Assembly: GCA_022385755.1 (NCBI GenBank)
Contig: MU278349.1
Span: 930,001-994,000, forward strand
From: Trametopsis cervina
Lineage: Eukaryota > Basidiomycota > Agaricomycetes > Polyporales > Irpicaceae
Direction: 5' to 3'
DNA length: 64,000 nt
A program made the position numbers and the translations under genes. This document shows, piece by piece, positions 13,456 to 33,664 of the stretch. Each line of letters opens with the position of its first letter. The first letter of the stretch is position 1. Below the pieces are notes generated by a model. It was not told the DNA's origin, searched no databases, and saw nothing but the letters and a program-made list of their open reading frames with translations.

Positions 13456-15510
13456 ATGCGCATTAACCCTGAACGACAGGCTCTTCTCCAAAAAGAACAA
13501 GATCTTATCCAGGAAGAACAGAATCTTCTTCAGGAAAAACAAGATCTTCTCCGGAGAGAACAAGATCGCGCGAAGGCTCTCATTTCCACTCGCTACCAGT
13601 TGAACAATACTACAGCCATTGGCAAACTTCCCATTGAGATAATAACAGAGATATTCTATTGGGTTGTCACTCCCAATAAACTGCCCAGTCCGAGCACACT
13701 TACAAGGGCGGCGTGCTATGCGTGGATGGGTCTTCCACGCGTGTGCAGACGGTGGCACGAAGTCGCAATGGCCACACCAGCTTTGTGGTCCTCCATCGTG
13801 GTGACAGGACATCGCAAGGAGATAGTTGCTTGCTTGGCGAAGTCGAAGGACGCGCTGCTAGACGTCGCCACAAACCATGTTCTTTTGGACTATCCCGCGT
13901 CGCTTGACTGGAACACGTTGCAAGTTTTGAGAAGCATCTTACACCATGCTCATCGTATCCGATCCATCGACTTTGCGTTCCGTAACAAAGATTTCGTCGA
14001 CGTCGTGGAAGATCTACCCAAGGTAAACCTGCCTAGGTTGCGCTATCTTTCCATAGCCGCTTGTGACTCCCCCCACCACGTCTTTCCTCCCCACTGGCTG
14101 TGCAGCTTCACCTTCGGAAGTCTGGACTGTCCAGATATGAAAGAGCTGAGTATCTCGCGATGCAACTTTCCATTCGAGAAAATTACCGGCTACACCAAGC
14201 TGACATCGTTGACCATCGAGTTGTCGCCCCATACAGCTACCAAAGCCCTAGCAGAAACGATGGTGTTGGGCATACTTAGAGCAACGTCGGACTTGGTCAC
14301 CCTGCGTCTTCTCGACGCATTTATCCCAGGTGTGCCGGCCGCGGCCGACGATGCGAAAGAAAACACCGGAGTGTCTAACCACGATATCATTCTTCTACCT
14401 CGATTGTCCTGCGCTGAACTGGGTGGAAACGTTGCTGCCATCGCTAGTATCCTCCACTACGTCCATTTCCCAAGTACTGCGCGCCTTTTGCTGCCTTCTA
14501 CGAGCTCGCGCTCCCCGGCGGATATTGAGGCTCTCATTGAGCCTCTTCAAGCTCGACTGGATGGCAATGCAGCGCTTGCCCCCCTTGTACACTTGAAGAC
14601 CATGCACATTCGGGCGAGCACCCGGACACCTATCGGCATTAACTGCTGGGTTAAATCCTCTTATGGCATTGGAATAAGTCCCGATGAGCCTTTCCCATTC
14701 CACGAGGAACCGGACTTCAAAATATGCTACCCTATAGATGGACATGATCTTGATGCGCTATGTATGATGCCGCTACACGAAGTTCAGTCACTTTGGCTAA
14801 GGTCAAAACGAAAGCATTCGCTTCCACCGAACTTCGCCCGGGCGTACAAGGACTTCAAATCGGTACTCGAACTGCGTCTACGTACCTTCCGCCACGGCAC
14901 CATCGTAAAGATGCTTGGTGTATCCACCCCGTCCTCATCCTCCGCACATTCACCGTCGCTTGTACCCGCGGATTTTTACTTCCCAACCCTCGAGGCCCTC
15001 TATATATCAAAAATATACTTTAGGAACTATCTCCACCCAGAGAATGATGTCCCCGACCCCGCAAGTCCTACGAAAGATTTGTGCGAGGTTTTGCAACAGC
15101 GCAAGGAGGTTGGACTGGACTTCCCGCGCTTGATCTTCGACGATTGTTACAATCTGAACAGGGTAGCGGTTAAGGCGTTGCGGCTGATAGGATGTGAGGT
15201 CGACTGGGACGGGTCGTGTACGGCCGAGTCGGATGAGTATGATCGCCCAGACTCAGAGTATGATGATGACACAGACGATTTCGAAGGGGGTTATGAGGAT
15301 TCTGAGGATGAGGATAGTTGCATAGAGTCAGTGTATTCTGACATAGAGGATTCGGAAGAGAGCCACGAGGGCTCAGAGGGCCACGAGGATTCAGAGGATC
15401 TCGAAGATTCAGAGGATTTAGAAGAGAGTACCGAGGATTCTGAGGATGAGATGGAGTACAACGCTGGGTTCGACCCTGATGACTACTACTATGATTACGT
15501 TCTTATGTGA
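13456..15510 (+). CDS. F-box protein with Gln/Glu coiled coil and acidic tail
   Basis: An intronless frame of 684 residues from the ATG at 13456 (MRINPERQ). Residues 5-40 form a charged helix with a repeating LLQ[KE]EQDL pattern, a predicted coiled coil. An F-box-like motif follows (IGKLPIEIITEIFYWVV ... LPRVCRRWHEVAMATPALWSSI), then leucine-rich stretches of the kind seen in mushroom F-box proteins (KELSISRCNF, LRLLDAFIPG). The last 90 residues are very acidic with D/E-S-E-D repeats (EDSEDLEDSEDLEEST). It is probably an SCF ubiquitin-ligase substrate adaptor through Skp1; the substrate is unknown. It is the last host gene before the mobile segment. The reading frame extends upstream to 13333, but that part is probably leader. 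Confidence 0.75.
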   Translation: MRINPERQALLQKEQDLIQEEQNLLQEKQDLLRREQDRAKALISTRYQLNNTTAIGKLPIEIITEIFYWVVTPNKLPSPSTLTRAACYAWMGLPRVCRRWHEVAMATPALWSSIVVTGHRKEIVACLAKSKDALLDVATNHVLLDYPASLDWNTLQVLRSILHHAHRIRSIDFAFRNKDFVDVVEDLPKVNLPRLRYLSIAACDSPHHVFPPHWLCSFTFGSLDCPDMKELSISRCNFPFEKITGYTKLTSLTIELSPHTATKALAETMVLGILRATSDLVTLRLLDAFIPGVPAAADDAKENTGVSNHDIILLPRLSCAELGGNVAAIASILHYVHFPSTARLLLPSTSSRSPADIEALIEPLQARLDGNAALAPLVHLKTMHIRASTRTPIGINCWVKSSYGIGISPDEPFPFHEEPDFKICYPIDGHDLDALCMMPLHEVQSLWLRSKRKHSLPPNFARAYKDFKSVLELRLRTFRHGTIVKMLGVSTPSSSSAHSPSLVPADFYFPTLEALYISKIYFRNYLHPENDVPDPASPTKDLCEVLQQRKEVGLDFPRLIFDDCYNLNRVAVKALRLIGCEVDWDGSCTAESDEYDRPDSEYDDDTDDFEGGYEDSEDEDSCIESVYSDIEDSEESHEGSEGHEDSEDLEDSEDLEESTEDSEDEMEYNAGFDPDDYYYDYVLM

Positions 15511-16292
15511 TTTCGCACTCGATACGTCCTCATGAAGATATATAATACAGTATTATCACACATACTTTGGGATTTATAGGTGATAGGTATAGGCTGGCCG
15601 GCCTCGGCCGGTCATGTACGGTAGGTCGATACTATAACGATGTTGTGCCGGTTATATATTTCGGTAATGAAGTGCGGCAGAATGTAAAATGCCGTAGGTG
15701 TAAAGTGTGCCAATGGTATCATGGCCACAGTGATATTACCACTCGGCGCATGTATGTAGTAGCTTTCTGATATAAAGCGACCGTGTTAGAAATACATTAC
15801 ATTAACGTAGAACAGCCGGAGCCAAATTGTACACATTCATAGACAAGCATACCATCCCTGATATATCGCCTGTATCACCTGGCCGATGTAATCAAATCCG
15901 ACCGGCCGGTCGATATTGGCTCATGAAAATTAGCCGTACTATGTCACCGCTATCGTTGGGCCGATACTTCATGGGAAGCTATCGGTCTGCCGGTTGTGCA
16001 GCTATTCAGTTAGGAGAAGCACATTATCTGTCGGCCGGCCATATACATGAGCAGCCCAAGTAGCACCACTATCGGTCGGCCGCCGGTGCATTTACATAAA
16101 TATGACAACCATAATATCTATCAGCCGGTTATGCACCTCAGCAGCGGGCGCACTGCTTCTATCAGTCGGCTGGATGTGCAGTTACACAGGTAGGAGAACC
16201 ATATTATCTGTCGGCCGACCATGTACGGGAACAGGGCTTGTATCAACCCTATCAGTCGTCCGGCTATGCATCTGAACTACCCAACCACTGCC

Positions 16293-17219
16293 GCCATCTG
16301 CGGGCCGGCCGTGCATGTGACAGGTTCGGTACTCATGTTATCGGTCGGCCGGCTATCCATTTCATCGGTGACATGAAAGCATTATCAGTCGGCCGGCTAA
16401 GCATGGNNNNNNNNNNNNNNNNNNNNNNNNNNNNNNNNNNNNNNNNNNNNNNNNNNNNNNNNNNNNNNNNNNNNNNNNNNNNNNNNNNNNNNNNNNNNNN
16501 NNNNNNNNNNNNNNNNNNNNNNNNNNNNNNNNNNNNNNNNNNNNNNNNNNNNNNNNNNNNNNNNNNNNNNNNNNNNNNNNNNNNNNNNNNNNNNNNNNNN
16601 NNNNNNNNNNNNNNNNNNNNNNNNNNNNNNNNNNNNNNNNNNNNNNNNNNNNNNNNNNNNNNNNNNNNNNNNNNNNNNNNNNNNNNNNNNNNNNNNNNNN
16701 NNNNNNNNNNNNNNNNNNNNNNNNNNNNNNNNNNNNNNNNNNNNNNNNNNNNNNNNNNNNNNNNNNNNNNNNNNNNNNNNNNNNNNNNNNNNNNNNNNNN
16801 NNNNNNNNNNNNNNNNNNNNNNNNNNNNNNNNNNNNNNNNNNNNNNNNNNNNNNNNNNNNNNNNNNNNNNNNNNNNNNNNNNNNNNNNNNNNNNNNNNNN
16901 NNNNNNNNNNNNNNNNNNNNNNNNNNNNNNNNNNNNNNNNNNNNNNNNNNNNAACATTATCAGTCGGCCGGCTATGCATGTGACAGGTTCGGTACTCATG
17001 TTATCGGTCGGCCGGCTATCCATTTCATCGGTGACATGAAAACATTATCAGTCGGCCGGCTATGCATGTGACAGTTCCAGCACCTATGTTATCGGTTGGC
17101 CAGCTATCCATTTCATTGGTGACATGAAAACATTATCAGTCGGCTGATTATGCATGTCGACAGCTCAACAGACACCGCTATTGATCGGCCGGCCATGCAT
17201 GTGACCGCACTGGCACCGT
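16293..17219. repeat. 88-bp tandem repeat within the left array
   Basis: Units start at 16293, 16381, then after the gap at 16956, 17044 and 17132, exactly 88 bases apart on each side of the gap. Each unit is two half-units, one continuing TATGCATGTGACAGGTTCGG and the other TATCCATTTCATCGGTGACA. The units are nearly identical, so they were homogenised or amplified recently. Confidence 0.85.
16407..16952. other. Assembly gap of 546 N
   Basis: Unsequenced bases inside the 88-bp tandem array. The distance between unit starts across it (16381 to 16956, 575 bases) is not a multiple of 88, so the gap length is probably an estimate. Confidence 0.98.
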
Positions 17220-17521
17220 TGCTATCGGTCGTCCGGCCGTGCATTTCATCGGTAAGACACCAATAATATCATTCGGCTGTCTATGCAGGTGTTCGCCTCG
17301 ACTACCACCGTTATCAGTCGGCAGGTTGTGCAGACGAATTGATTAATTGAATGCTATATCGTTAACAAGAATGGAAAGAGATACAATTTGGTACACTACA
17401 GGCCCCACGACCATTGAACGGAAGGCAGCACAACACGAGCAGGCAAGGTTTGCATGGATGTGCCCGTAACTTGGGGCATATCTGTTTGAACGGCTGCAGC
17501 AAATTTATAAGTACACAATCG

Positions 17522-20183
17522 TCATGGCAGAACAAGCACAGGCGCACCTGTGTCCACCATTACTCGCTCGGCGGTTTGCACGGCTGCCTCTGACTCGAAA
17601 TGGCCAGGGGTAGTCTGTATTCCGGCTTGCCGGAGTTCCACATCAGCGGGGGCCGGTCTGATAACGTGGGCGACCTGCGAGCTCTGGCCGGCTTCGTCTT
17701 GCTCGGCTGTACCCAACGGGGTGGCACGGGCTGGTGCTGGTGGCGACGGCACACGGGGGGGCTCCTCCAGAACCGACGTTGTGCCTTCCTGCCCTGTGAC
17801 ATCCAGCCGACGAGGAGTTGGTCCCGGACGAACCTCAGTGTGGGGTGTGGGCCGTGGAGAAGCTTGCCCTGCGGTGGTGGATGTGGCAGTGCCTGCGGGC
17901 GTGGTCCCAGTTTGCTGTGCGCCTGCCAAATGCGTCTCTGTCTCGCTTTCCTGGTCGGCCTGAGGTGGCGGCGGGGATAGCCCTTGATCGACGTGCTGGC
18001 CGGACGGGCCTGGTTCTCCTCCAACATCCCAGTCTGACATTTATATGGTCAGTAGATACACCAAATGCTCGCAGAAAACTGTACCATCACCCTGGGTATC
18101 TTGAAGCTCATCTGGGGAGTTGACTGGGCCATCGCCGTCAGCATACAGTCATCAATTCAACATGAATGAACGTACAAATCTGCCAATCGCTGTCATTAGC
18201 CTCACGCAAACGCATGCGGGGAGGACGACGCACAGAGGGTCGCCGAACAGCGTCCTCCAGCTCCCCACTGCTGACCTCCAAATCGGACGGCAACACAGTC
18301 TTCTTATTTGGCCCACGCGTTTTCATATAAACGACCGGAGGCGGCGGTACATTCCGATGTCTGGCAGCTGGCTTCGACGTGTTTGAGGCCTTTTTTCCAC
18401 GGGCGGCTTGCTTTCCTTTCTTCGCACGTGCAGCAGTCTTTTGAGGGCGCAGTCCACGCTTTCCTTCGGCTGTTGCCCGTGTGCGGCGCCACCACTCCAA
18501 CGTCTCCTCACCATCGGTAAGTTCATAGTCCTCCTCGGGTGGAGCCGGACTGTGTTGGCGTGGGTGACGATCCTCTAGCATCAGAGCTGCTTCTCCGACT
18601 GTTGCGGGCAGTACCAGGTTCTGTTCGGCCCGCTCTTCGGCCACCTTGAGTAGGAAGAGCATGTCGTTGATCATGTCTTCACTGGTCTTTCCGCCCTTGC
18701 CAAAGCGTGATGCGAGGTCGCACTGGACCTTCTGACGAATGCATCGAAGGCACCGCGTGCTGCAGGTGTTGTCCATCGGATTGAGGTAGACAAAGCATCT
18801 ATGACGCCATTTACCCCGGGCGACTTTGCACGTACCGCATGAAATCGCCTTTCCTGTGTATAAGTATGCAATAGCATCTCCATAAGGAATTACTTACCGA
18901 AAGAACCGCATCGTCGTGCCAATCCTCCTCGGATATGTACTCTGCAATGAGTGCGGCGACATTCGTAACGTGCGCACCCAATCCACCAGAGGGCTCCGAG
19001 GACAGAGAACCTCGCGGAAGGTCGGCGTCATCGTCAGATTCTGCATCCAAGTCGGCCGAAGTTGCACGGGCCTTGCCCTTCCCCCGGCTTGCAGCCTGCG
19101 GCTTTGTCGGACGTCGCGAAGATACCCCTGGCCGAGCTAAAGGCCTGCCTGTAAGTGGGGACGAGCGTACAATGCGTGCTCGCTTTTTCGTTTTCTTCAT
19201 CGCGGACTTCAGGGCAGGCCGGTCTTCTTCATCGCTTACATCCGCGGCCACTGTGGATTGCGAGCGGCTACGCTTCCGTGGGGTTGGAACACTACGGCGA
19301 CTGGAGTCTACGTGGGCATTAGTACTGCGACTTTGAAGCAGAAAACGGGGCGTACCACTTGCCATGGCCTCGTCGCCATCGTCATCCACCACCCGCGAAC
19401 GTCGTGCGGACCGTGACCGACCACGCGTGGTGCGCCGTGCCGGCCCGCGACGACTTGTATCTAAGGGATCATTAGACAAATAGATCATGGATTGGAAAAT
19501 TACACATACCAGTTTCCATCCCATCGTCTTCCTCCGGTGACAAGGATCGGGTCCGGGAGCTACCACCTCTGCCCTTCCTTCCGCGACTTGGGTTGCGGGC
19601 AGGTTTCTGCGCCTTCTTGGGGGCCGGAGATCCACGTGTTCGAGATCGGCCGCGACGCAGCACTTGCTCACCCTCCGCCGGCCCAGGGCTGGGTGCGTGT
19701 GCCAGAGGATCATTGGCAGGTTGTGGCCGAAACTCTGCTAATGTGTAAGCGATAAATACCACGCGTTTCCAGGAATGCATACCTTCCCACCATGCATCTC
19801 CCGATGCATTCAAGACCGCCTCGTCCACAAGTGGCCGGGCATCAGTAAGCACCATCCCATAACCTGCCACTCTTTCATCGGTCGTTGTGACCGCTGCCAG
19901 ATCAGGCCATCGTTGCTCTGCATGCGCCTCGCGCATTTCCTCGGCCAGGCTGGCCGCCAATGAATACATGATCGCGCGAGGGTCGGCTCGCCACGCCAAG
20001 ATCATTGCACGCTGGATCCAGTCAGCACAAATATTGCTTGGTAGAACCTACACTCACCGCTTCATCACCCATCTTCTTCCAATACGGCAGCATTTTGTCC
20101 TTGCCAACATTGGCGACCATGTCCAGACCGGTCATCAGGCGAACAGCAGCGACATTGACACGATGTTGGACGGCGGCAGACAT
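17522..20183 (-). CDS. Element gene A: Cys-cluster, basic/Ser-rich protein
   Basis: I do not recognise a named family. Exons join with compatible phases into about 790 residues. MSAAVQHRVNVAAVRLM...LPYWKKMGDEA (20183-20057) leads to a helical LAWRADPRAIMYSLAASLAEEM region. A long Arg/Ser/Lys-rich disordered part follows (RRGRSRTRGSPAPKKAQKPA; RGPARRTTRGRSRSARRSR), then AALIAEYISEEDWHDDAV. Next is a cysteine cluster at about 18840-18715: C-x2-C-x10-C-x10-C-x3-C-x2-C-x6-C (CGTCK, then CSTRCLRCIRQKVQCD), resembling a fungal binuclear zinc cluster. After a helix (MINDMLFLLKVAEERAEQN) come more basic stretches and a Pro/Thr-rich end. A 22-base exon near 18100-18079 links the last two parts and is uncertain; two genes are an alternative. 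Likely nuclear and DNA-binding, by inference. It is transcribed divergently from gene B. Confidence 0.6.
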
Positions 20184-20406
20184 GCTAGATGAAATGAGCA
20201 GGGTAGAGCGATGAGGGATGTTGTGGTTGATTGTGATGGAAGATGAAGAAGAAGACACCGTGGAAGCAACTTAAAGTGAACGCTCAGATCGGCTTCAAGA
20301 GATCGCCGTCTATGACGATACCGGCCGGACACATCACGTGACCGTGAGCATCTCCATTAGGACTGTGTAGTGTAAGATAGAGATCTAACTGTACCACGAC
20401 CACACA
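20184..20406. promoter_or_regulatory. Divergent A/B promoter with array-like motif and CACGTG
   Basis: The 223 bases between the starts of genes A (minus) and B (plus) hold GATACCGGCCGGAC at 20317-20330, matching the core of the right array, and a palindromic CACGTG at 20335-20340. Both genes must be controlled from here. Confidence 0.5.
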
Positions 20407-22189
20407 ATGAAACAAAGTAAGTGTTCCGCACCATTAAATGTAAGCCACTGATGTATTCTGTAGACACAACTCAAGGCCACGAATATAGCCGTATATACGA
20501 CAACACCGGCCGAAAAGAGACCGAATTTGGCCTTGTCTCAGACGGTTCCAATCTTTGGATATCAAAAGGTACGCTTTGTTGTTGCGCATCTAATCCACAT
20601 GCTTAAAATCCATACCGACAGATTTTACACTGCATACACGGAAGCCCGACATGCTTCGGCCGGCCGATCAGCCACCCGAAGGCCCTGCGAGGTCGGATGA
20701 GGCCCATCAGTCGAGAAGCGATTCTTCCATCAACTCCATGCAAGCTGAAGACGAACCAGATACTACGTGGGGAGACCTACCTCCATGGGAAGGACCAGGT
20801 GCTGTACTGTCTGCTCCGGCCGATTTGGAAAGACCGGCAGTCGGCGGTGTTGTCTTTCTCGACTCGCCGCTGCCCTCATTTCGACCGAGCACGTCTGTTG
20901 CTGGCTCCCCAGACTCATCGTCCTATTTCCCCACCTTCCGGACGGGCACGAGTATCAGCCAAGTGGAAGAGCCGATCATCTTCCTCGACACACCATTGCC
21001 CAGGTTCGAAGACAACGGTAGGGCGGGAAATTCACCGGCACCGCCCAGCACTATTCCCGCGAACGTTGGGGACATCCAGCCGAACAGCCCGGCGCTGTTT
21101 CTTCATATACCGTTGCCACCCTTTGGGGGATACAGTAGCGGCAGAAGCTCCCCAGATCGTGGACAGCATCACTCGGCCGTTGAGCGTTCTCCTCATGCAG
21201 AGCCTCATCACGCCTCTGGGAGTGATACATCCGACATTGATGGGCGGGAACCGGTTAGCAGCGTCATTGAAAGTCATCGCGGCAACCAGACCTCTCCAGA
21301 GCCCGATCGACATCCGGACAATGGTGGTAAGTTCGACGACGACCGGAGCGGACAACGCAGCAGTTCTATACCATCTCCGCCGCCTGCCCACTCAGTCCTT
21401 ACATTTGGTCAATCGTCTTCCTTCGAGTTCACATTCAAGGCGACCATTTCCGACAACGATCGGGAAGCTGATGAACACGCGACCGCACTCACATCGACTC
21501 CTCTACCCATGTATTCCGTCCCACCGCTGGCACTATCCAACTCGCCGATTAATCAAGAAGCAATTGGAGACGCTCGGCCACCTTCCAATACAGTATTTGG
21601 CAATGATTCCGAACCGCAGAAGCACCCTCAAGCGAGCCGATCACTGTCTGAGCGAGTGGTGTTTATGCCGAGCCCTCTACCAGCCTTTGGCCACCTGTCG
21701 GATGACGAAGGGACAAGGGCTGTTACTTTCATGTCTGCCGATCTGCCCACATTTGTGGCTGCCTCGGCCGAACATGTGCCCAACGGTTCTGAGTATGAAG
21801 ATCGTCCAAATGTGCATGCAGCTCAGAAAGGAGCAGACGTAGGCTTCCTCTCTTCAGCGCTGCCTAGTTTCGACAAACGGACATCATCCCGGAATACCCC
21901 ATTACATCCACAGCACGCACGTAATTCTGATGATTTCCCCCGCACTTCTTCTGATCGCAGAGCCGTCTCAATGTCCGACGTGGACCCACTCCCCGGGTTT
22001 GGTGACACGCCGTTAAGTGGCGACCATCGCCATACATCAGTGGAATCTGGTGAAGGTAACAATCTATCCTGGCTACGGTGATGATTTTCTGACACTATGA
22101 CACAACAGGAAGCAGGGCGGGTCGTCGCATGGTCACCTTTGCCGGAATTGCGTCTGCCGGGACAGATTCAGAAAGCGATGAAAGGTAGA
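20407..22189 (+). CDS. Element gene B: protein with repeated PLP-x-F motifs
   Basis: I recognise no family. Exons: ATG at 20407 (MKQ), intron to about 20465, exon NTTQGHEYSRIYDNTGRK...GSNLWISK, intron to about 20620, then a long exon in frame with MLRPADQPPEG at 20651. A final intron near 22056 leads to a last exon reading MVTFAGIASAGTDSESDER with stop at 22187-22189. The protein is mostly disordered but contains about eight copies of a short motif, consensus [VIL]F[LM]xxPLPxF: VFLDSPLPSF, IFLDTPLPRF, LFLHIPLPPF, LTSTPLPMY, VFMPSPLPAF, TFMSADLPTF, GFLSSALPSF and DPLPGF (20850-22000). Spacing is 40-120 residues. Conserved motifs in a variable background suggest a multivalent docking protein. 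It is convergent with gene C, whose stop lies 58 bases away. Confidence 0.65.
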
Positions 22190-22246
22190 CTAGCGTGTAT
22201 GATATTTGTGTATGCAACATGATCGATGTACAGTTGGAATTTGGAA

Positions 22247-24988
22247 CTACTTGAGAACAACACTACCCCGGGCACGCTCAGACACAGTCACTTGCCGGCC
22301 GCTGCGTGTAACCTTCTCGGCAAATTCATGACCCTTGGCAACTTTGGACGGTGGCTTTGATACGGCCTTGGTGCCACCGGACGAGCTGCCAGAATTGCTG
22401 GGGTTACTGAAAAAATAGACTTAGTTCTGTGGATGAAGTCAATACAGCTATGCGTACCCTCCTGAAGGACCCGTTTCTGCCCGCTTGCGCTTGCGCAAAG
22501 CTGCCTCAGACGGCTCTAGGTTATCAGTGACGGTCTCTTCAGCTTCGGCAGCCTGCACCGGATCCGTATTCGGTGTGGCAGATACGGCACCGTCCAGGAC
22601 AGGCCCAGGGCTGTTGCGAATATCAGTCCCCGTGGAACCTTCGGCGACAATAGCCTTCTCATTCCCGGCCGAAGATGCCAATGCGTCCTCGGATGGAGGC
22701 GGAAACACAGATAATGATGGGTGGCCTGCACTTCCAACGGGGTTGTTGGATGGAGGCGGGGAAATTGAGAGAATGAACTCCAGCACGTTGTGAATGATAT
22801 CGGTTGCCGAGTTTATGTTCATGTCGGGGGGAAGGATAGATTCACGTTCGATCACATCATCGCTTGGGCTGGAGCGATCGAATGCATGTGTGTGAAGCTC
22901 TCGTAATAGCATTGCCAGACCAAGGGTGAGCTGCTCCAGTTGGCCGGCCTTGTTGTAGAAGACGTCGCCGGTGATGTATCCCCGCTTATCCAACCACGAC
23001 CACATAGCCGGATAATCGAAGATACGTGGGCTCGGCAACTGAAGAAGATCGTAATGCCAAGTCGCCCAGGGTAGCATTTTCAAGGACGGATACTTGATGT
23101 CCTCTAACGTCGTGTCTCTGAAGCCAAAAGCGTGATCGGCCGCCGCTTGGAGCCGACGATCGTCCGGTGCCAATGCCTTCACGTATTTAATATGCCGCTC
23201 GCGCTGGCTGCGAAACTGGTCGGGAGGCTGGTCGGCATAATCAGAAAGTGCAAGAAGACCGTCCTCAATCTCTACCAGCTGCGTCGAGGTGCTAACGCGT
23301 GCGGCGGGGTGACGGCGGCCGGTCGGCCCGGCTGGTGTGGCAGCGGTTTTGGGTTTTGGCCCGATCTTACCATGTTTGAGAATGTCGTTAACACTCAACT
23401 CCTCGTCGTCGGTAAATACCGCCTCTGACTCCTCTGAGGAAGCCTCTCGTGCTCGCCTCTTGCCTTTCGCATTTTTTCCTTGGCCGGACATTTTCGACTT
23501 TTCCGGCCGGCGGGCAGAGCGACCACCGGCTGATAGCGGCTCGGTAGGGATGACCGGCTGGGAAGGATAAAGATTGGTATCGACAAGCTCGCCATTGCGT
23601 TGCACCCCTGTGAATCGGAGGAAGTGATCACCACGTCCACGGTATTGTTGAAGCAAAGCGACCAATGACCGGCGGCGAATGTGAGACGGATCTTCCACGG
23701 GCACACCCTCCAACCACATCCGGTCGACGTCAAAGTACTTATGGGGCTGTGCTCGAATATCTACCCAAGGAACCGAGGCCGACGGTAGGCCTGATGCCAG
23801 CACTGGGAACCCGAGTTAGTTCGTAATATGGCCGATGAGCACCGGTTACATACCATACTCGGCCGTCCATACCTCGCGCAAGGCTCGGCTGAGGTCCTTG
23901 GCATCCATTTTTGCTATGTCCCCATCGGAGGGAATAACACAGTGACCGGAGGCATCCAGGGCTAGCAGCGGCATATCTCTGCCCGTGGAGTCTGCCACCT
24001 TGGCCACAGTTGCGCCGCCGGCCACAGAGCCATTGTCATCGGGCTCAACAGCATCTACATGCAAATGAAACAAAGCCCTGATACAATGCATGGGAATACC
24101 ATACCGGCCATTTCTTGCACATACTTCTGCCATAGCGTTAACATGGTATTGAACTCTTTGTCCTTGGCCTTCGACATTGCAGACACCCGTGGGTCAATAA
24201 TGTCGTTGTTTTCCAGGCTACATATGCTATCAGAACGTCACCAGGAGTGTTATAAACTGTGCGCATACGCGGTAACACTCCACTCCCCTTCTTCGTCCTT
24301 GTAGCCGGTCAGCAAGACCGCAAATGGGATGCCGTAGTTGGTATTCAGTGTTCCCGCGACCGACTTCGCATACTTCAAGAGCTCCTTGCGATTCCTAGGT
24401 ATGTGGGTTATCAGCGATGATACAAAGCACTCTGGTGAGACTGCCTACTTAATCTGCTGGGTAGTGGTGAGACCATCAGAGTCTTTGTGCTGGCGTGCAG
24501 CCTCTCGGTATCGCGCTTTCTCATCTTCGGCCACATCTTCGGTCAGCTCTCTGAGTGCGATGTTTCTTGCCTTCAGGCCATCGCCCTGGCCCAATGCCTT
24601 CAGGCGGGCATGAAGCTCATCTACATGCTCCTCGGCCCACATATCCGTCCACTTTCGAGCCCGTTGCCGAGGAGCCGCCATCTTGGCCGTGGGAGCACTG
24701 CTCGGAGCCGGCTTAAAGTGGTTTTGCACGTAGTTACACGCACTCTGGTTGTCGGATAAGTATCGACATATATGAAGAACCTCTAAGGCACACCTCAGAC
24801 CACGCATGGACAGAGTATGGCGAGTCAGCCGGGCGTAAGGTCGCAACCTCTTCCCCTCCTTGCCGGCGAAGCTGACCACGAACATGGCGGTCGGCCGCAT
24901 CACGAAAGAGAGGGCCGATGCGAGCAATGACAGCCTTCTGTTGATCGCTGTACTGTTCGTAAGAGGGTAGGGATTTAGCTTGAGGCAT
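22247..24988 (-). CDS. Element gene C: large companion protein
   Basis: About 820 residues over roughly seven exons. Order: MPQAKSLPSYEQYSDQQKAV (24988 down); a basic helical segment, AAPRQRARKWTDMWAEEHVDELHARL then ARNIALRELTEDVAEDEKARYREAA (about 24680-24500), whose WxxMWAxxH...DEKxxYxxxA pattern resembles an HMG-box-like helix. Then AVLLTGYKDEEGEW (about 24340-24285), LLALDASGHCVIPSDGDIAK (about 23970-23910), and a central region with PHKYFDVDRMWLEGVPVEDP and LLQQYRGRGDHFLRFTGV. A basic linker follows, then the helical WATWHYDLLQLPSPRIFDY. The last exon begins after an intron at about 22457-22407 and ends SERARGSVVLK with stop at 22247-22249. Proteins of this layout accompany KDZ-type elements in mushroom genomes, from general knowledge; their role is not known to me. 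Probably nuclear. Confidence 0.65.
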
Positions 24989-25700
24989 TGCGAATGTGGT
25001 GAGTGTGCTGTGAGGGTGACGGATGACTTTGCTTCACACATCCAACATAGAGCCCTGTCTTGCACACAGCGTGGTATGTGTACGCCATCGCCTTATGCAT
25101 GCAATCTACGCTAGTTTCGATCACCCTCAAGATATCAACATAGCCCCTGCTATCGGTCGGCCGATGGCCCACACACCCTGCAACCACTGTGCGATCCCTA
25201 CCATGAACTTTGCAATCTCGTGCTCCTCAGCATTTACAGGTATAGCCCAAATAATCCCTCTGGATACGGAAGAAGTGCACAATCCTGTCAGATTAGAATC
25301 GTGGATCGGGATGAATATCTTAGATACATTAAGATCAGCATCGGGGATAAGGTCATGACATCACATCTTGAACAATCAGACCCTTGTGCCTTACGATAGG
25401 TGCCCGCATGATAATCCGTCGCAGTGATCAAATGACGATGCAATCACCGACCGCAAGGCGATGTGCGATGAACCGGGTGCTAACCGCCACAAAGCACGGA
25501 CCGCAGGCCGATGCTATCGTTGGCCCGATCTACGGCCGAAAACGAATCCGAGCGGGTAACACAATGAACCCCGTGATTGATAAGGCATGCTACAAACAGA
25601 TCAGATAAAGCACATGTGGCCGGCGGCAGCCAGCACCGAGCTGGTTCAGCCTCTACACCCTTTACACCCACACCTCTCTTGCGCTCTTCCCTCATCGACG
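24989..25700. promoter_or_regulatory. Divergent C/D promoter with array-like motifs
   Basis: A 712-base region between gene C and the dioxygenase. It contains TATCGGTCGGCCGATGG at 25151-25167 and GCTATCGTTGGCCCGATC at 25513-25530, both close to left-array cores (compare GCTATCGTTGGGCCGATA near 15951). No separate gene is supported. The dioxygenase frame is open upstream to an ATG at 25614. Confidence 0.5.
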
Positions 25701-27084
25701 ATGTGGCCAGAAATTGAAGTTCTCAGCTTTGAAGCAAAACACACGATGGTCCATGTCTGTGAATGGCATGCTGCTCGGTACTCTCAAACTGTGAACAACA
25801 TCTCCATCCCATACCCGAAGCTGCCACCAGATGTTGCCGCGGTAGACGATATGGCGGAACACATGTCCCGGCTCACGCGGATCGCCGACATGTTGGTTAT
25901 CGCGGGTCAAAACACTAGTATGTTCATCCCCGATCTGTGCACAGGCTATACAGCACTTACCAAGAGCAGTTAGACATCGTCGCTTTGATGCCGATGTATA
26001 TGCGACCGCCTTGGAGAACGGCCGAAATATCGAAAATGACCCTGCTCTACGGCAACAGCTCGGCATGACCGGCCAAGGCGAGATTACCAAGGTGATCGAC
26101 TTCCCGTGCATAATCACCGATCGTAAGGGCCGCATTCTCTGCTGGTATTTGCCCGAGGTTCTCGACCAGGCTACACAGGTGAGAGTGCCCCACGTCCAAT
26201 TATAATGGTTCTCATGTGCTCCATTACAGGAATGCACCCTACGGGGCTTCAATCAGCTTCGTCCGGAGCTTCAAAAGGCCTCTGGTATCCCTGTGGACTC
26301 GGTGAGAAAGCCTACCATCACGTGGAGACGCGATGCGCAGTATTTCCGGCCGAAGAACACCTGCCTCATTCCTCCCGGGATTCTGACATTTGCACCGGTG
26401 TGGCACATGCCCGGATTTTCGGTGCGTTATCAGATGTTTGTTGGGCACATGTTCGAACGGTTTACAAATGATATACAGCCACCAAAACATGCACCGGTCG
26501 AGGGTGCCGCATGGCGCGACTTTCGAAAGACAGACCGGTGGCCGAGATGGGTGGATGAGTTGCATGACCTTATGTGGGCGATGTTCACGGTGGCTTCGAT
26601 CTGTCATCCAAGGCAGCTGGCCGCCTACAATGGGTCTTTGAACTCCTTACGCGAATCCGGGCCGACGTTCGAAGAGGCATATGCCAACTGGCAGTGGCCC
26701 GGTCATGGCCTTGCCCTCATCTCCAATAGGCAAACACCATTTCACCGCGATCGGAAGACCGCGATTGGGATGTACGATATTATCGCGACATGTGGAAGAT
26801 ACGCTGACGGCGACTTTGCCATCGAAGAACTGGGTATCCGCCTGAGGTACAAGCCCGGCACACTAATCAACATCGCGGGTGGAATGCTGCGCCATGCGGC
26901 GGAGGTGGGAGAGGGCGAACGGGTGGCAGCCGTGTGTTTCATGCGGGAAGAGCTGATGGAAGCCACAGAAACCGCTATCCCTTTCTTGACCGACATGGAA
27001 CATCGCTTGACAGATATCGAAGGTTGGATCGTCCCCGACACAGAGAGCCAACCCGATGATGGTGCCTCCAATCATTCGCAGTAG
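25701..27084 (+). CDS. Element gene D: TET/JBP-family 2-oxoglutarate/Fe(II) dioxygenase
   Basis: About 420 residues in three exons (introns near 25.9 kb and 26180-26230; the first has an uncertain donor). The jelly-roll catalytic core is complete by eye. An H-x-D iron pair sits in TPFHRDRKTAIGMYDI (His codon 26743, Asp codon 26749), the distal iron His in NIAGGMLRHAAEV (codon 26893), and the 2-oxoglutarate Arg follows in GEGERVAAV (codon 26920). Upstream family-like segments include FDADVYATALENGRNI, VIDFPCIITDRKGRILCWYLP and WPRWVDELHDLMWAMF. The TET/JBP family oxidises 5-methylpyrimidines in DNA; fungal members expand together with KDZ transposons in agaricomycetes. The likely substrate is 5-methylcytosine, perhaps in the element's own CpG-rich arrays (inference). 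It lies just upstream of the transposase on the same strand. Start uncertain between 25614 and 25701. Confidence 0.85.
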
Positions 27085-27156
27085 ATTATGTTTTAAAGTT
27101 GTCCATAGCCATCAATACAAATTGCCTCATCGCTCCATCCTTTACCTCCTCGTCCA

Positions 27157-30100
27157 ATGGCGCGCGCGACAACAAGAAAGATTCGAAGTAAAATACACGT
27201 GTATGCCGCCGTGAAAAAGCCCATGAGGCATGGGCAAGGCACAGTCGAAGTTCTTGATCGAATTGCGTTTTCGCCCAGCCGATCCGAAATGCCGGACCAC
27301 GGGGCGGATGCTCTCCCGACCAACCAGTCACCGGTCGATGAACCTGAAGCCACCGTGCAGAATATCCCTGACCCTGTAGCGCACAACACACGAGTGTGTA
27401 CTTTCCGGTCATGCGTAATTGCTTTTTCAAATAACATAAATGCCTTTGTAGTCACAGAACTACTTCATGCGTCAATGGCTGGAAAATTACCGCTCAGCCT
27501 TTGAGGAGGCCATACTTGCGGGTGAGACTCCGTCATCCTTGAATCCAAAGTGTCCCTGTGGTGCGGTAGGCGATTGGCGGTGTGATGACTGTTTTGGGCA
27601 ACCGGTGCACTGCCTGAAATGTCTCCAACAAACTCACAAACGGCTACCCTGGCACCATATCAGTCAATGGCAGGCCGGCGGGTACTATAGCCGATCATCG
27701 CTAGCAGCGACCGGGATACAATTATTGTGTGGCCATGGTGGGGGAGAATGCCCAAATAATGTTAGGGTAATGCCAATGCACATAGCAAGGCAATATCCGA
27801 CGGAACAACATGCACACAACCGGGTGGGTACGCCGGCCGATCCCAGTGGTGATGAAGACGCCGACGACATCCCTGCTGAGCTATGTATGGAGGAGGTAGT
27901 TGGCAACGACGATGCCACACTACCAGATACACTGGAGGACGAAGCAGACCGTACTGACCCGATCGATATACTTGACGATATGCCCGAAGAAGACGACACA
28001 GAGCTTACCGGTTCGGCCGCGGCGTTTGGCCCCTCACAACGCAAGCCCGGCCAACTCACAGTAATTGATATCACCGGAATACATCACATTACCGTAATAT
28101 TCTGTCAATGCCCTTTTGCACCCGCTCGTTACCGCCAGCTCCTCGATCTTCAACTCTATCCGGCCAGCTGTGACCGGCCGGCTACGGTGTTCACCTTTGC
28201 GGTGTTAGACAACTTCATTCTCCATAATCGCGCATGCAATACACCTGCGCAGAGCTACTTCAATGTTCTACAGCGGATAACCGATCCCATTCAGCCGCAT
28301 TTGACAACGGTACCTCCGGCATCTTATGACCTTGTTCGGCTGCTGACCTGATTACTTAGAACCGCTACAGGGAATTTTTGCGTGTCATACGCCAATGGAG
28401 GCACTTGAAAACACGTCGGCAGAGTGGCGTGTCTCACGAGGGATATCGGTCAGACGTTAAAGGTCAGATGGCGTTGTTCTGCCCCGCCTGCCCTCAACCA
28501 AATATCAACCTACCACCGGATTGGCAAAGTGATGCAGACCGGTATCGTCCTTCCCCATACAGCCTGTATGTGTGCCGTACTAATGTGTAGGATAGATGGA
28601 AGTACCGTATTCAGTTGGTGATGGATGGGAACTTCGCGGCCGAACATCAACGCATGAAGAATCCTGAAGATGATGTCTGGCTGGCCGATGGCGACGGGTT
28701 TTTTGTGGGTCGTGGCCGGTTTCAGGAGCATTGCCGAACGGCTGTAGAGCGTGTACAGGTCAGCCTCTCACACCGCAACAGTTGGTGCACTATCTGACTT
28801 CGCATTAAAGCGATCTTCATGCAATGATCATAAGGCTGTTAATGGTCCTGGCCGGAAAAGCACACTGGATGCAACCGGCATCGGGGCAACCGCTTGTGCG
28901 CGACACGGAGCTATGGTACCGCACTCCGTGGTGAACTTTACCCGTGGGGAGAAGTAAGTTACTGATCGGCAACTTCTCACCTGAGCTAACAAGGTGGTTC
29001 AGGCAGCGTGACATGGACTACTCCTATGTGAACAGTATAGAAAGGCTCATCCATCCATCGATCTCCGAGGCGGTCGTTTATTACGATGTGGTATGCCAAT
29101 GGATGGTTCATCTCGGGTTTCGGATAGAAAACTCCCCCATTCTGAGCGACATGTTGAAGCATCTACCGAACTTGCGCACGGTGAAGGGAATTGGCTTATT
29201 TCATGTTCACGGACACAAGCAGGCCTGTCTGCCCAGGTTTTCCCCCGACTTTATCAAAGGCGTGGGAATGGTGGATGGTGAAATAATTGAAACCCTCTGG
29301 GCCGGCCTCAACGACACCAGTCGAGGAACCCGTGGAATGACATCGGCCCATCGACAAGAAGTCATTGACGATCAAATCGGCTATTCCAACTGGATGAAAA
29401 CCATCCGCATTGGTATGTCGTCAGAGCAGCATACGTCTGGTTCTTTCTGACTGGCAATGCAGTCAATCGAATTCGTGCCAAATACAAGCGAGCGAGGGAA
29501 ATGCTTGCGGAGAGTGAAACCGCCTTTGAATCGGTCGACAGAACCCTTGCCGATGATGACCGGCATGCATGGTCGGTAATGGAGTCGGCGGCATTGTTGG
29601 ACAGAACGGAAAATCCAGAGACGATGGATATTTTCGATGTTGATGAACAATGCGGTATGCAGTAATGCCGTGACCCCGTCAGTTGCACCCTAACACTTCA
29701 CAGCACCTGGCTTGGCCGATCGGCTTGCAGCATTGTTGACGTTGGAGACCGGCCGGGATGCTACCACCATTGGCCGAGCAGCATGGATTGCACACGGCCT
29801 GCGGCTACAGGAGGATCAGTACGTAATATACCAATATGGGATATGCTAGTCCTGACAAACTCCAGGCTTGCACTTGCCTCGGAGGCACGAAAACTAAGTC
29901 GATACGCAGGGAAGGATGAAAAACTAAAGTTCATCCGCAAGGAACAACGGCTTGCGGTTCAGATTGCCTCTCACGAACGTACAGGCAAGATATACGCCTC
30001 CATCATACCCTCGGGGATTGATATGTCGTCAACCAATGTGATAGAAACATTAGCCGATGAACCAGCCTATGACGGTGCGGAATGGGATGCGGCCGATGAA

Positions 30101-30955
30101 GAGGAGGAACATGCCGATCGGGGAGAGATGGTGCCAATAGCGGCCGAGCTAGAACAAGATCAAGTACCTGCGTACAAGCTCCCCATTCTGCTGTTTTCCA
30201 CACTTTCGGTGACCGACGATAGCAATCAGCAGCTCCGAGCGGGTCTGCAAGAGGAGGTTGCCCTACGTCAAGGCCAAGCAGAGGATAAACTTGCCTCTCT
30301 TAGAGTACTCCTTGCTTGGAAGTCTGTAGTCTTCCGCAGGGGCGTGCGCCCAGCCGGTGCATATAGCGAGCAACTGCGAGCTTGGGAGAAGGTGCGATCT
30401 GTTGCCACTAGCGTGCGACAGCAGGCTAGTGCGTATGAACACTCACGGCGAATCATGTATACCATTACCGATGACACAAGCCCTGAAGGCATCGCCATCC
30501 GTACCAGATTTAAACCGCTCACAAAAGCTGATCTAAAGATCAGCACAGAGTTTCTGTCTTCCGATATCCGTGGATTGCGTCATACTCACCAGTCCTGGAT
30601 TTGGAGCGGTGCACATCCATCCGGAATTGATAGTGGAAAACTGCTGGACGAATGTAGGTGTATTTGTGATCTATCATGATCTGTTTCTGATTTCATCGGC
30701 TCAGATCGACGAGTGGTCTGGCTTAGAGCAAAGGCCCGAAGGGATCGATGGAAGGAAGAAACTATTCTGATTCCATTTGAACTAGAGTGCATTGCACGCT
30801 TTTATCAGCATCATCGGATGCTATGGACGGATAGAGCACAGAAGACCCACCAGCGCGGTCAAGGGGCTGGATACACAGCATACGCTCTACGCCAAGCACA
30901 GGTTTGGAAAAGACTGGAAGAGCATGCGACGCAAGCACGATCAACAATTGACTAG
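27157..30955 (+). CDS. Element gene E: KDZ-superfamily transposase with CxC2-like cluster
   Basis: About 1100 residues over roughly ten exons. The N-terminal ATG at 27157 gives MARATTRKIRSKIHVYAAVK. After an intron (donor near 27392, acceptor near 27458) comes RQWLENYRSAFEEAIL and a cysteine cluster, CPCGAVGDWRCDDC / CLKCLQQTHKRLPWHHISQW, with GGYYSRSSL and LLCGHGGGECP: the CxC2 cluster associated with KDZ transposases. The core follows: NRYREFLRVIRQWRHLK, VMDGNFAAEHQRMKNP (Asp codon 28624), NDHKAVNGPG and ATGIGATACARHG, FTRGEK joined to RDMDYSYVNS, VVYYDVVCQW (Asp codon 29085) and VDGEIIETLWAGLND (Glu codons 29280 and 29289). A C-terminal helical region ends RRVVWLRAKARRDRW...STID. The acidic triad is present, so it may be active. 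It cuts and rejoins element ends in the nucleus. The acidic insert DPSGDEDADD...EEDDTELT near 27.9 kb is disordered. Confidence 0.92.
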
Positions 30956-31057
30956 ATAATCAGTGGCCAATAGTCGTCGGCCTGCGGACATGCATAGCTA
31001 TATATATAGTAACCTTGTACAAAGTCCATGCATTGTGTTCGAGTCACGGCTACTGCC

Positions 31058-31708
31058 ATGGACATGCGAGAAATTCCCAACTTCCTTCATGACCAGGACT
31101 GGCGCAGACCGGCGGTGATCAGTAATATGGCCGAGTCATATCTTCGTATTTATGCCGCCCGCTGCCGTCAGGCATTGCAAGCACTTCCGGCCGAGGAGGA
31201 CATACTGAATTGTGCACGGTTCAAACGAGGACTTGTGGAGGAACTGGTCAGTTGCATACATGCGTTATACTCAACTGGCGACTCACCTGTGTACAGAGAG
31301 CGGTCATCTTTCAGGCCGGCATCCTCGCTGCAAAGTGCCGCGAGGACAAGGTGCAGCTGCAGCAGCCACTTGTCTGGCTGCTCAATAAGGTCACAATTAA
31401 CTTCGACAAGGTTGACCTGGACCTCGATGACCTTCGCGCTATTGTGTTTGAGGAGCAACCGGCACCAGATAACATGTGGGGGGATCAGTGGTGGACATAT
31501 CCATTGGTGGGTAGCAGAACCGCCAATATGCAGCCCCCCGCCGATCATTGGTGGTGGAGCTTTGCAAATGTGAGCACATACTTTAACACTGCAAACACGC
31601 CTGCTCAATTGCAATCTGTAGCCTCCCATCGAAATTATCGAGCTTACTGATTCGGAGGATGATGACGATGACACCAAATTGGATTCTGATAGCAACGGCG
31701 GTTTGTAG
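31058..31708 (+). CDS. Element gene F: small protein with SUMO-interaction-like tail
   Basis: Three exons joined in frame: MDMREIPNFLHDQDWRRPAV...RFKRGLVEEL, intron 31247-31300 or so, then RAVIFQAGILAAKCRED...WWTYPLVGSR...DHWWWSFAN, an intron near 31570-31620, and PPIEIIELTDSEDDDDDTKL ending GGL with stop at 31706-31708. About 180 residues. The last exon holds IEIIELTDSEDDDDD, a hydrophobic run with a Leu-Thr and following acids, the form of a canonical SUMO-interaction motif. The Trp-rich middle (WGDQWWTYP, HWWWSF) is unusual. An upstream in-frame ATG lies at 31028. No known family. The longer antisense frame over the same bases is taken as a shadow. Confidence 0.6.
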
Positions 31709-31829
31709 AAGTACATGTATCGTTTACATACCAAGCCGCTGTTTTGCTGGCACGAATATTGCTACGGCATTGCACCGGGCTACCACGATATCTGACCAAT
31801 TGAGAGTAATGCGAAATGATGCCCTTGCC

Positions 31830-33110
31830 TTATAATCGGCAGACCGGCACCGCCACATTCTCCCTGGGCTATGATGATTCATTTGGCCGGCAGATAGTAT
31901 GCCATTCCAACTCAGCCGGTCAATAGTATCATGTACCGACCTACAGCTATTGTATGCAACCAAGCAATAGTATCCTTATACTATTGCTGGCCGGTCGATA
32001 GTATCCTCATATGCTCGGCGGCTGTTGTATCTGGCTGGCCGATAGTATCACGGTATGAATACCGACCGACCAGTGTTATCACGGTTTGCCCAACAGCTAT
32101 CACACCCGGCCGAGCGATAACATCTCTAGGCTATCAATAGCAGGTCGATACTATCATAGTGTACAACGCTACTATCATGTCCGGCCGACAGATAGTATTG
32201 CTATGCTATCACCGGCCGGTTGATGTTATCATGATGTTCGGCGCCAACGTTATGCCTGGCCGGCGAATAGTGTCACAATACTATGGCTGGCCGTTCGATA
32301 CTATCATCATATGCTCAGCTGCTGTTGTATCCGGCCGAACGATAGTAACACGGTATGAATACCGACCGATCAGTACTATCATGGTATGCTCAACAGCTAT
32401 CACACTCGGTCGAGTGATAATATCCTTATGTGATTAAGAGTAAGTCGATATTATCGTGGTGTACAATGCTACTATCATGTCCGGCCGACAGATAGTATCG
32501 CTGTACGGACACCGGCCGGTAAATACTACCATGCAATGCTCTACAGCTATTGCATTCCACCGAGCGATAGTATGCCAATACTAATACCGGCCGGTTGATA
32601 GTATCCGTACATGCCTGGCTGCTATTGTTTCCGGCCGACCAATAGTATCACTATACGATTACTGAACGGCCAGTAATATCCTGGTATGTCCGGCAGCCAT
32701 TGAACTCGGCCGAGAGATAGTATCCCTATGCTATCAATGGCAGGCGGATGTTATCATGGTATTCAATGCCATTATCATGTCCGGTTGGCAGATATTATCA
32801 CGATACAATGACCGGCCGGTGGATATTATCATCATATTTCCGGCTGCTATTGTATCTGGCAGACCGACAGTATCACGGGACGATTACCAACCGGTCGATA
32901 CTGTGATGGTGCGCCCGCTGGCTATTACACTCGGCCGAGTGATAGTGCCCCTATGCTGTCACCGGCCGGTGGATAGCATTGTGATATGTCTGACCACTGA
33001 TGCATCCGGCCCCGTGATAGCATGGCTGTGCCATCTCCGGCCGGTAGATATTGTCGTGCTACAGCAAGTCGTTCCGGAGTCCGGCCAATAGGTATTATCG
33101 TATCGCACAA
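31830..33110. repeat. Right subterminal array: ~75-bp repeats in 300-bp higher-order units
   Basis: Cores of the form CCGGCCGGT-x-GATA-x-TATCAT alternate with CCGGCCGA-xx-GATAGTATCAC. Cores at 32512 and 32587 are 75 bases apart. The block ATCATGTCCGG starts at 32174, 32474 and 32774, exactly 300 bases apart, with weaker matches near 31874 and 33074. So about four 75-bp units make one 300-bp unit, repeated about four times and diverged by point changes. The core in reverse complement (TATC-x-ACCGGCCGG) resembles the left-array core, so the two arrays are roughly inverted relatives. Confidence 0.8.
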
Positions 33111-33664
33111 TCCGTACCCCCTCTGGCCGAATGACCGTACAAGCAACCGATTTAAAGCACAACTGTACGATAGTAATGATACATGTTTTGGATGCTTACC
33201 GGTCGGCCGAACGATATTTGCGGCTACATGTGACATACAAGGCATTCCGCCACACCATACTATCACCCATTTCCTGTTCTAAATCTATGTACAGACTGAT
33301 GATAATATCAAGATAAGTTATATAGAGCTACATGACATATTTGCGATACTATCATGGTATATATACCTGCCACCTGCGTGATACCACCACTATACATAGC
33401 CCGATCGGCCGTGATCCGCTTACCACCACTATCGGCTAAAAGTCCCATTTGTCCACTGATAATATCGTCTACTTAGCTGAACTACCCCTCGATACTCGAT
33501 GAAGCAAAATGGATAGCGACAATACGATTTCGGTGATACTGTACGTGAGACTACGGCTGATATGCGACTACTGTTCTACTACGAGGCGTAATGCAGTACT
33601 TCTTGAAATAGGTGTTATCGGCGCTTATGCATCTTAACCTGACCCACTGACATCACCGAGCGAG
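33111..33664. other. Junction between right array and Pelota gene
   Basis: No gene. Scattered GATAATATC and CGATACTATCATGG words continue to about 33480, so the element probably ends between 33480 and 33660. Pelota regulatory sequence must also lie here. Confidence 0.5.

Follow-up and report, generated by a model that had tools for sequence, protein, structure and literature searches.

The window analysed here is a 64,000-nucleotide stretch of the genome of the basidiomycete Trametopsis cervina (contig MU278349.1, C2 in our numbering, positions 930001-994000). It contains a complete, autonomous, Kyakuja-like DNA transposon of the KDZ superfamily, which carries a TET/JBP dioxygenase gene (D), a transposase gene (E) and four companion genes (A, B, C and F) between two subterminal arrays. 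Elements of this kind have already been published; the new and testable feature is a short word, TCGGCC/CGGCCG, which is repeated in the arrays and over-represented in the coding sequences of the element. It may serve as an element-wide self-recognition word, maybe as a guide for the dioxygenase or for the transposase.

TET/JBP genes in fungal transposons have reportedly been known since 2014. In complete fungal transposons they have been documented since 2025 (main text of PMC12730594). The word offers a concrete, testable answer to how a TET/JBP enzyme could find the element that encodes it, and a defined sequence for assays. It also suggests a more general idea on self-recognition in mobile DNA, that of a transposon writing its own identity into synonymous sites. 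If an element protein reads the word and brings the dioxygenase to it, the element would encode its own sequence-addressed DNA demethylation system. No published account of either the oriented array site or the word in genes was found in the papers searched, all from one open-access library.

A complete element in eight long copies

A single genome was searched (29.4 Mb, 59 contigs). Alignment with the other copies in it placed the borders of the element sharply at window positions 15526 and 33488 (17,963 bp), which corrects the extent of 15546 to 33543 given in a preliminary description made from the letters of the window alone. The heptamer TCGATAC is directly repeated outside each end as a 7-bp target-site duplication (TSD). 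The termini are GTCC...CCCC, and terminal inverted repeats (TIRs) are absent: the outer ~24 nt of the two ends differ, and are followed in register at both ends by an alike stretch, TATTATCA...TGGGATTAATAG, recognised by eye. We call the element Kyakuja-like for its 7-bp TSD, rather than a strict member, because its ends are not CA...TG.

The eight long copies are that of the window, one each on contigs C15, C28, C38, C3 and C17, and two on C6 (C6p and C6m). Among the matches listed, gene order and orientation agree across all of them, and exact 7-bp TSDs flank 11 of the 11 insertions for which both ends were recovered. The preliminary description had taken the block for a transposon, and it is indeed one mobile unit, of which further copies lie in the same genome; scattering of the genes without conserved order is not the case within this genome. 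The whole-genome protein search covered genes C and E, gene D was followed through PF12851, and A, B and F through a whole-element DNA search and the copies. Copy C3 has an N-filled gap at 74528-74876, and its right part ends at a cut at 86700.

Gene E matches the KDZ family PF18758 (E 1.6e-44, residues 429-657) and the CxC2 family PF18803 (E 3.5e-22, residues 277-358). The acidic triad D436/D556/E624 is present in 8/8 copies, as are eight further cysteines N-terminal of CxC2 (residues 113-179). Genome-wide, PF18758 gave 24 exon matches grouped as 18 places, i.e. the eight TET-bearing copies and 10 without a TET match. Gene D matches PF12851 (E 2e-9, with a score of 37.3 bits where the cut-off is 34.9) and the Coprinopsis cinerea enzyme CcTet (PDB 7vpn, E 1.1e-18), and its Fe- and 2-oxoglutarate-binding residues (HxD...H...R) are present in every copy. 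Both identifications had been made from the letters of the window and are confirmed, including the CxC2 cluster. The whole genome holds eight PF12851 matches, every one within a copy of this element.

Gene models were splice-aware and were built from codon usage, splice signals and homology, without transcripts; their introns are 46-75 bp long with GT-AG borders. As the model finder always yields an open frame and may splice round a lesion, 'intact' means here that such a model exists, nothing more. In this sense the four companion genes, described earlier as free of stops, do have open spliced models. Models of D and E exist in 8/8 copies, which answers the loss of function considered for them only in part, since a model can pass round a lesion. 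The window-copy model of gene D has a doubtful N-terminal extension, and the C38 model of this gene omits a stretch that is present in C3.

The ratio of nonsynonymous to synonymous divergence (dN/dS) could be computed for some of the 28 pairs of copies, with stop codons in homology columns left out, and it never reached 0.5 in any of the five genes A, C, D, E and F: 0.14-0.39 for A (17/28 pairs computable), 0.10-0.32 for C (10/28), 0.10-0.36 for D (15/28), 0.08-0.49 for E (8/28) and 0.04-0.15 for F (27/28). Most copy pairs are near synonymous saturation, and the many dS values above 2 are unreliable; the close pair is C38-C3. Judged by these ratios, the five genes are under purifying selection. 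Stops in columns number one each for C28 and C6m in A, one for C28 in B, and two for C28 and one for C17 in C. For D they number four each in C15, C3 and C38, two in C17 and one each in C6p and C6m, and for E three in C15, two in C6p and one each in the window copy, C28, C17, C38 and C3. Such stops can stem from alignments that overrun exon ends, since the window copy's own E column has one.

Divergence is uneven along the element. Between C15 and C17, dS is 1.80 in A, 1.38 in C, 1.33 in D, 0.65 in E and 0.17 in F; it is lowest at the F end in C28-C6m and C28-C6p also. At the right end, C28, C6p and the copy on contig C18 described below do not differ at all over the last 66 bp. This mosaic, together with the identical right ends, suggests exchange between copies or lineages.

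An oriented array site and a word in the coding sequences

Both arrays carry one directional site, approximately RTAnTATcgGTCGGCCGR, as read from 206 inward-read TCGGCC sites in the eight copies. The consensus is similar across the copies, with the variant ATAATAGT.GTCGGCCG in C15 and C17, and it points inward in 8/8 left and 7/8 right arrays. The count of GTCGGCCG is 50 forward to 7 reverse in the left arrays, with a forward excess in 8/8 copies, and 15 forward to 58 reverse in the right arrays, with a reverse excess in 7/8. The palindrome CGGCCG occurs 111 times in the left and 172 times in the right arrays, against 2.2 and 3.5 expected from shuffles; a chance origin of the array repeats is ruled out by these shuffles and by the eight copies.

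The tandem periods of the arrays vary among copies. The arrays of the window copy align with others at their outermost stretches (87-156 bp on the left, 85-293 bp on the right) and hardly beyond, and the closer pairs C15-C17, C28-C6p and C6p-C6m align across most of the right array. Array lengths are uncertain because the window copy and several others hold N within them. The earlier statement that CpG-rich arrays bound the gene block stands as to their position and falls as to composition. The observed/expected ratio (o/e) of CpG is 1.07 in the left and 1.10 in the right array against 0.98-1.00 in the host flanks, and the arrays are lower in G+C; they are rich instead in CGGCCG.

The density of CGGCCG is 8-14/kb in the arrays (1.35 in the right part of C3) and 1.5-2.5/kb in the interior of the element, compared with 0.23-0.26/kb in the host flanks and 0-0.57/kb at 12 other loci. 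The word was tested in 40 coding sequences of A, C, D, E and F from the eight copies (77.8 kb, automatic models), a few of which hold doubtful stretches, e.g. an odd stretch of gene C in copy C28. Against synonymous shuffles, 143 CGGCCG were counted where 44.3 were expected (z 14.8), and 119 TCGGCCG where 23.7 were expected. A stricter null, in which codon-junction dinucleotides were kept (40 shuffles), gave 143 against 68.6 for CGGCCG (z 12.0) and 238 against 128 for GGCCGA (z 11.1). These two words rank first and second of 2080 strand-pooled 6-mers in the genes and likewise in the arrays. Seven of the top 20 6-mers are common to genes and arrays, an overlap whose p-value is indicative only, because overlapping words are not independent. 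The palindromes CCGCGG, GGCGCC and GGGCCC are below expectation. Each of the eight copies lies above its shuffle mean (z 2.3-8.9, 60 shuffles), and by gene the z values are 5.9 for A, 7.7 for C, 4.8 for D and 14.5 for E.

The positions of the word mostly turn over between copies, and what is kept is thus its density rather than its place. Among 123 codon columns with TCGGCC or GGCCGA, 67 belong to a single copy; two copies share 32 of the columns, three copies 12, four copies five and five copies seven, and no column is shared more widely. Under a looser shuffle, no excess of CGGCC was found in seven host open reading frames (ORFs; 10.3 kb, 18 against 21.3 expected) or in 11 ORFs of other transposons (24.9 kb, 44 against 56.7). 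The transposon control comprised the 10 loci L001-L005, L089 and L091-L094; L090, with a match score equal to that of L089, was left out, and so were L006 and L007, which overlap loci of this set.

A word-tagged element and its alternatives

In the numbering of CcTet, gene D retains R321, T323, H326, D328, D337, Y361, H376, R385 and F391 in 8/8 copies (H376 was assigned by hand from the alignment to CcTet). R205 is matched by columns in 6/8, and the remaining two models also read WRRDAQYF. Residues critical in CcTet, Asp337 among them, are named in the structure paper (PMC11040006), whose available text states that Gly331 makes room for N6-methyladenine (6mA) and that in other TETs a side chain at this position clashes with 6mA and holds 5-methylcytosine (5mC). 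Position 331 of gene D is Thr in 8/8 copies, and since side chains there clash with 6mA, we predict that gene D is a 5mC specialist, with 5mC preferred over 6mA. A 5mC substrate is plausible in this genome given three host loci with matches to the DNA methyltransferase family PF00145 (matches at the level of loci). Among all loci compared, CpG o/e is lowest (0.71) and TpG+CpA highest (1.38) at the DNA methyltransferase locus L085 (G000:C1:1465-1466 kb). Viral relatives of gene D were looked for and none was confirmed.

Taken together, we read the element as word-tagged: one of its own proteins would bind the word and bring D, and D would keep the element unsilenced. We give this joint reading a probability of about 0.5. 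Candidates for the binding protein are the transposase itself and a companion with a zinc cluster, for which gene A or else the cysteine clusters of E come into question. It would bind RTAnTATcgGTCGGCCGR in the arrays and also the TCGGCC words elsewhere in the element, which are weaker, and these sites would give the element a sequence tag of its own. Bound to the word, it would bring the dioxygenase and may also recruit the transposase. The dioxygenase would then oxidise 5mC at CpGs in and near the word, whereby host methyltransferases would fail to keep the element silent, and gene F may provide a link from the complex to SUMO-modified chromatin or repair proteins of the host. Such a mechanism would be akin to the anti-silencing of plant VANC/VANDAL, but with the element's own dioxygenase. 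A narrower form, in which the word is a distributed, CpG-bearing address that is selected at synonymous sites and read by an element protein bringing TET to element DNA only, is possible though on the whole doubtful. We are equally tentative about the proposal that eight copies, C38 and C3 being close relatives, would have kept such an address system in parallel within one genome.

Several observations weigh against a word-tagged element. The right array of C38 has no orientation (5 forward, 4 reverse), gene F shows no enrichment (z 1.0) and copy C6m a weak one (z 2.3), and introns hold the word at a lower density (1.00/kb) than exons do (3.10/kb). The controls on host and other-transposon ORFs are small and were run under the looser shuffle alone. 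Under the highest-order Markov model the palindrome CGGCCG as such is unexceptional in the interior (rank 362), and for this reason we describe the excess as an overlapping family of shorter words around TCGGC/CGGCC. The candidate binding protein of gene A has no Pfam family and no PDB match, and its structure model is unusable, with a predicted local distance difference test (pLDDT) of 52. CpG decay is no different between TET-bearing and TET-less transposons, so that self-demethylation gets no support from it: CpG o/e is 0.92-1.01 in the TET-bearing copies, 0.85-1.12 at TET-less KDZ loci and 0.96-1.15 at reverse-transcriptase loci. Finally, oxidised 5mC is found on other transposons too in C. 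cinerea and L. bicolor, according to work cited in the main text of PMC12730594, a pattern that points to untargeted activity.

Three other explanations were weighed. The word could serve transposition only, with the array sites used for synapsis, the inner weaker sites loading the protein along the element and preventing its insertion into itself (target immunity), and D acting independently. Inward-pointing arrays and conserved outermost stretches are usual for transposase-bound subterminal regions, and this element has mostly inward-pointing arrays at both ends, as well as outermost stretches in the window copy that align with other copies. This leaves the two CpGs of the core unexplained in an element with a 5mC-type oxidase, and we regard it as unlikely. 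Alternatively, D might oxidise methylcytosine genome-wide and help all transposons, the arrays and the word being unrelated to it, which would agree with the missing CpG advantage of TET-bearing elements and with the oxidised 5mC on retrotransposons and other transposons of the two fungi cited in PMC12730594. Every TET/JBP match of the genome lies within one element family, and D is under purifying selection between copies; for these reasons we favour a benefit of D to its own element and hold genome-wide action to be improbable. Least probable in our estimate is that the genes acquired the word as a side effect of context-dependent mutation or repair bias (e.g. from oxidised cytosines) or of exchange with the arrays, without selection for recognition: the mosaic divergence and the spread of the excess over overlapping shorter words fit it, but CCGCGG and GGCGCC, which are likewise G+C-rich palindromes with CpG, fall short of expectation, the top words coincide in genes and arrays, and array exchange would disrupt conserved proteins.

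Known systems, companion genes and further insertions

Iyer and colleagues are said to have linked KDZ transposons in 2014 to TET/JBP genes and to extra proteins, including one with a divergent HMG domain. The preliminary description had proposed an undescribed system; complete TET-bearing Kyakuja elements with 7-bp TSDs, together with the proposal of an escape from methylation, are already in print (Kojima 2025, main text of PMC12730594). With those elements (Kyakuja-1_LB, Kyakuja-2_LB and others) the present one shares a KDZ transposase, an AG-like TET/JBP enzyme, the 7-bp TSD, the lack of an outer TIR and the proposed escape from methylation silencing. Its ends are GTCC...CCCC, whereas those of two L. 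bicolor Kyakuja families are 5'-CA..TG-3', and position 331 is Thr where Kyakuja has Gly or Ser (PMC12730594). Of the marks of the AG type, HxD...H...R and Asp337 occur in 8/8 copies, and Gly/Ser331 in none. The TSD is 8 bp in Zisupton and in the Dileera example (PMC12730594). Descriptions of arrays, a companion set or a word were not found for Kyakuja in the available text of that paper, and 'subterminal' and 'HMG' have 0 matches in its main text. Since TET-bearing Kyakuja elements are known, yet the ends, T331, companion set, arrays and word differ, we regard the element as a variant of a published kind.

The subterminal repeats resemble those of En/Spm, which are read by the element protein TnpA; the reader of the word in the present element is a putative one. 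From CcTet (PMC11040006; PDB 7vpn), with which the Fe-, 2-oxoglutarate- and base-binding residues including Asp337 are shared, gene D differs in having Thr for Gly331. The nearest parallel comes from plants: in Arabidopsis, VANC is an element protein which binds fast-diverging, motif-bearing tandem repeats and demethylates its own family, as described in the available text of PMC10398659. VANDAL21/VANC shares with the present element non-coding tandem repeats that have a short motif and periods varying between copies; different here are the element's own dioxygenase and a core word that is common to eight copies and reaches into genes. The likeness to VANC is one of description, the word-binding protein of our element being presumed. 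The KDZ1-3 elements of Cryptococcus share a KDZ transposase with a cysteine cluster, which is of the CxC1 type; they have TSDs of 8 bp (KDZ1) or 4-8 bp, TIRs of 139-241 bp and lengths of ~9-11 kb, and no TET is mentioned in the available text of PMC12810828.

Table 1. Features of the element and its target site, in window coordinates.
Feature	Position	Strand	Remarks
Left TSD, TCGATAC	15519..15525	.	same letters as 33489-33495
Left end 5'-GTCCTCATGAAGATATATAA and left subterminal array	15526..17360	+	end aligns in other copies; array with ~44-bp period, directional TCGGCCGG sites and a 546-base N run at 16407-16952
ORF A'	17522..18040	-	172 aa, low complexity; unsupported by other copies
Gene A	18041..20183	-	6 exons, 623 aa, charged; spliced model; homologues in 7/7 other long copies
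Gene B	20451..22081	+	500 aa from 3 exons, disorder probable; exon 1 in 7/7 other copies
Gene C	22247..24988	-	7 exons, 805 aa; no Pfam family; N-terminal helical region conserved
Gene D, TET/JBP dioxygenase	25701..27084	+	426 aa; exons 25701-25917, 25970-26178, 26230-27084
Gene E, KDZ transposase with CxC2 cluster	27157..30955	+	10 exons, 1112 aa; PF18758, PF18803
Gene F	31058..31708	+	182 aa; exons 31058-31246, 31297-31569, 31622-31708; models in 8/8 copies
Right subterminal array and right end ...TTAGCTGAACTACCCC-3'	31709..33488	-	75/150/300-bp periods; sites mostly mirror-oriented
Right TSD, TCGATAC	33489..33495	.	same letters as 15519-15525

The features are listed in Table 1. Gene A has six cysteines that are invariant in 6 aligned rows (in the window C-x2-C-x10-C-x14-C-x2-C-x6-C) and form a candidate DNA-binding zinc cluster. 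To us the spacing is reminiscent of a Zn2Cys6 cluster, and CGG triplets are the half-sites of zinc clusters of the Gal4 type. An identification as Zn2Cys6 was rejected, as Pfam listed no zinc-cluster family even with the threshold relaxed to E 10, and nothing in the PDB matched. No relative of ORF A' was seen in other copies among the matches listed.

Gene C was found by the genome-wide protein search in the eight TET-bearing copies and as a fragment in the C18 copy only, and at none of the 10 KDZ places without TET. Its helical region gave a three-helix single-sequence model (pLDDT 69, predicted template modelling score 0.34). The helices are suggestive of an HMG box, for which no match in sequence or fold was found: there was no Foldseek match and no Pfam HMG match in 7 rows, and the gene is not among the PF00505 matches of the genome. 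Gene F ends in a C-terminal tail, IEIIELTDSEDDDDD (window 31622-31708), which is present in 8/8 copies and which we take to resemble a SUMO-interaction motif; the gene has no Pfam family, and its best PDB match (E 0.11) is at chance level. With an alternative acceptor another model of F is 176 aa long; the acceptor at 31297 was read by hand. Gene B is poorly alignable among copies past exon 1, and its frames have no Pfam match. A motif like xFxxxPLPxF is repeated in gene B in 3/8 copies (the window copy, C38 and C3).

With <=1 mismatch allowed, the left end word has 13 occurrences in the genome, against none for its control, and the right end word has 11; with <=2 mismatches the right end word has 13, against 4 for its control. 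One of the 11 two-ended insertions is split across the starts of contigs C12 and C20, whose first 1.2 kb hold the left and the right end of one element with the shared 7-bp duplication GCCCAAT; the C20 end is one of the right-word places at <=2 mismatches, and the assembly seems to be broken there inside a copy. Three further element ends remain unpaired. Locus L042 (G000:C14:37392-40825) is a 3.4-kb copy with both ends and the TSD CTTGCTT; no gene remnants were found in it, 1.7 kb of its length being N, and it is possibly non-autonomous. The copy at G000:C18:419770-449046 has both ends, the TSD ATTCTGC and a gene C fragment at 441925-442661; two sampled interior stretches of it are N at 427/501 and 301/301 positions.

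In the window, an F-box-like frame (13318-15510, PF12937) precedes the element, which lies 15 bp beyond the stop codon of that frame. Downstream of the element, we take an ATG at 33665 to open a gene whose product has eRF1 domain 1 (PF03463) and which is presumably pelota/Dom34.

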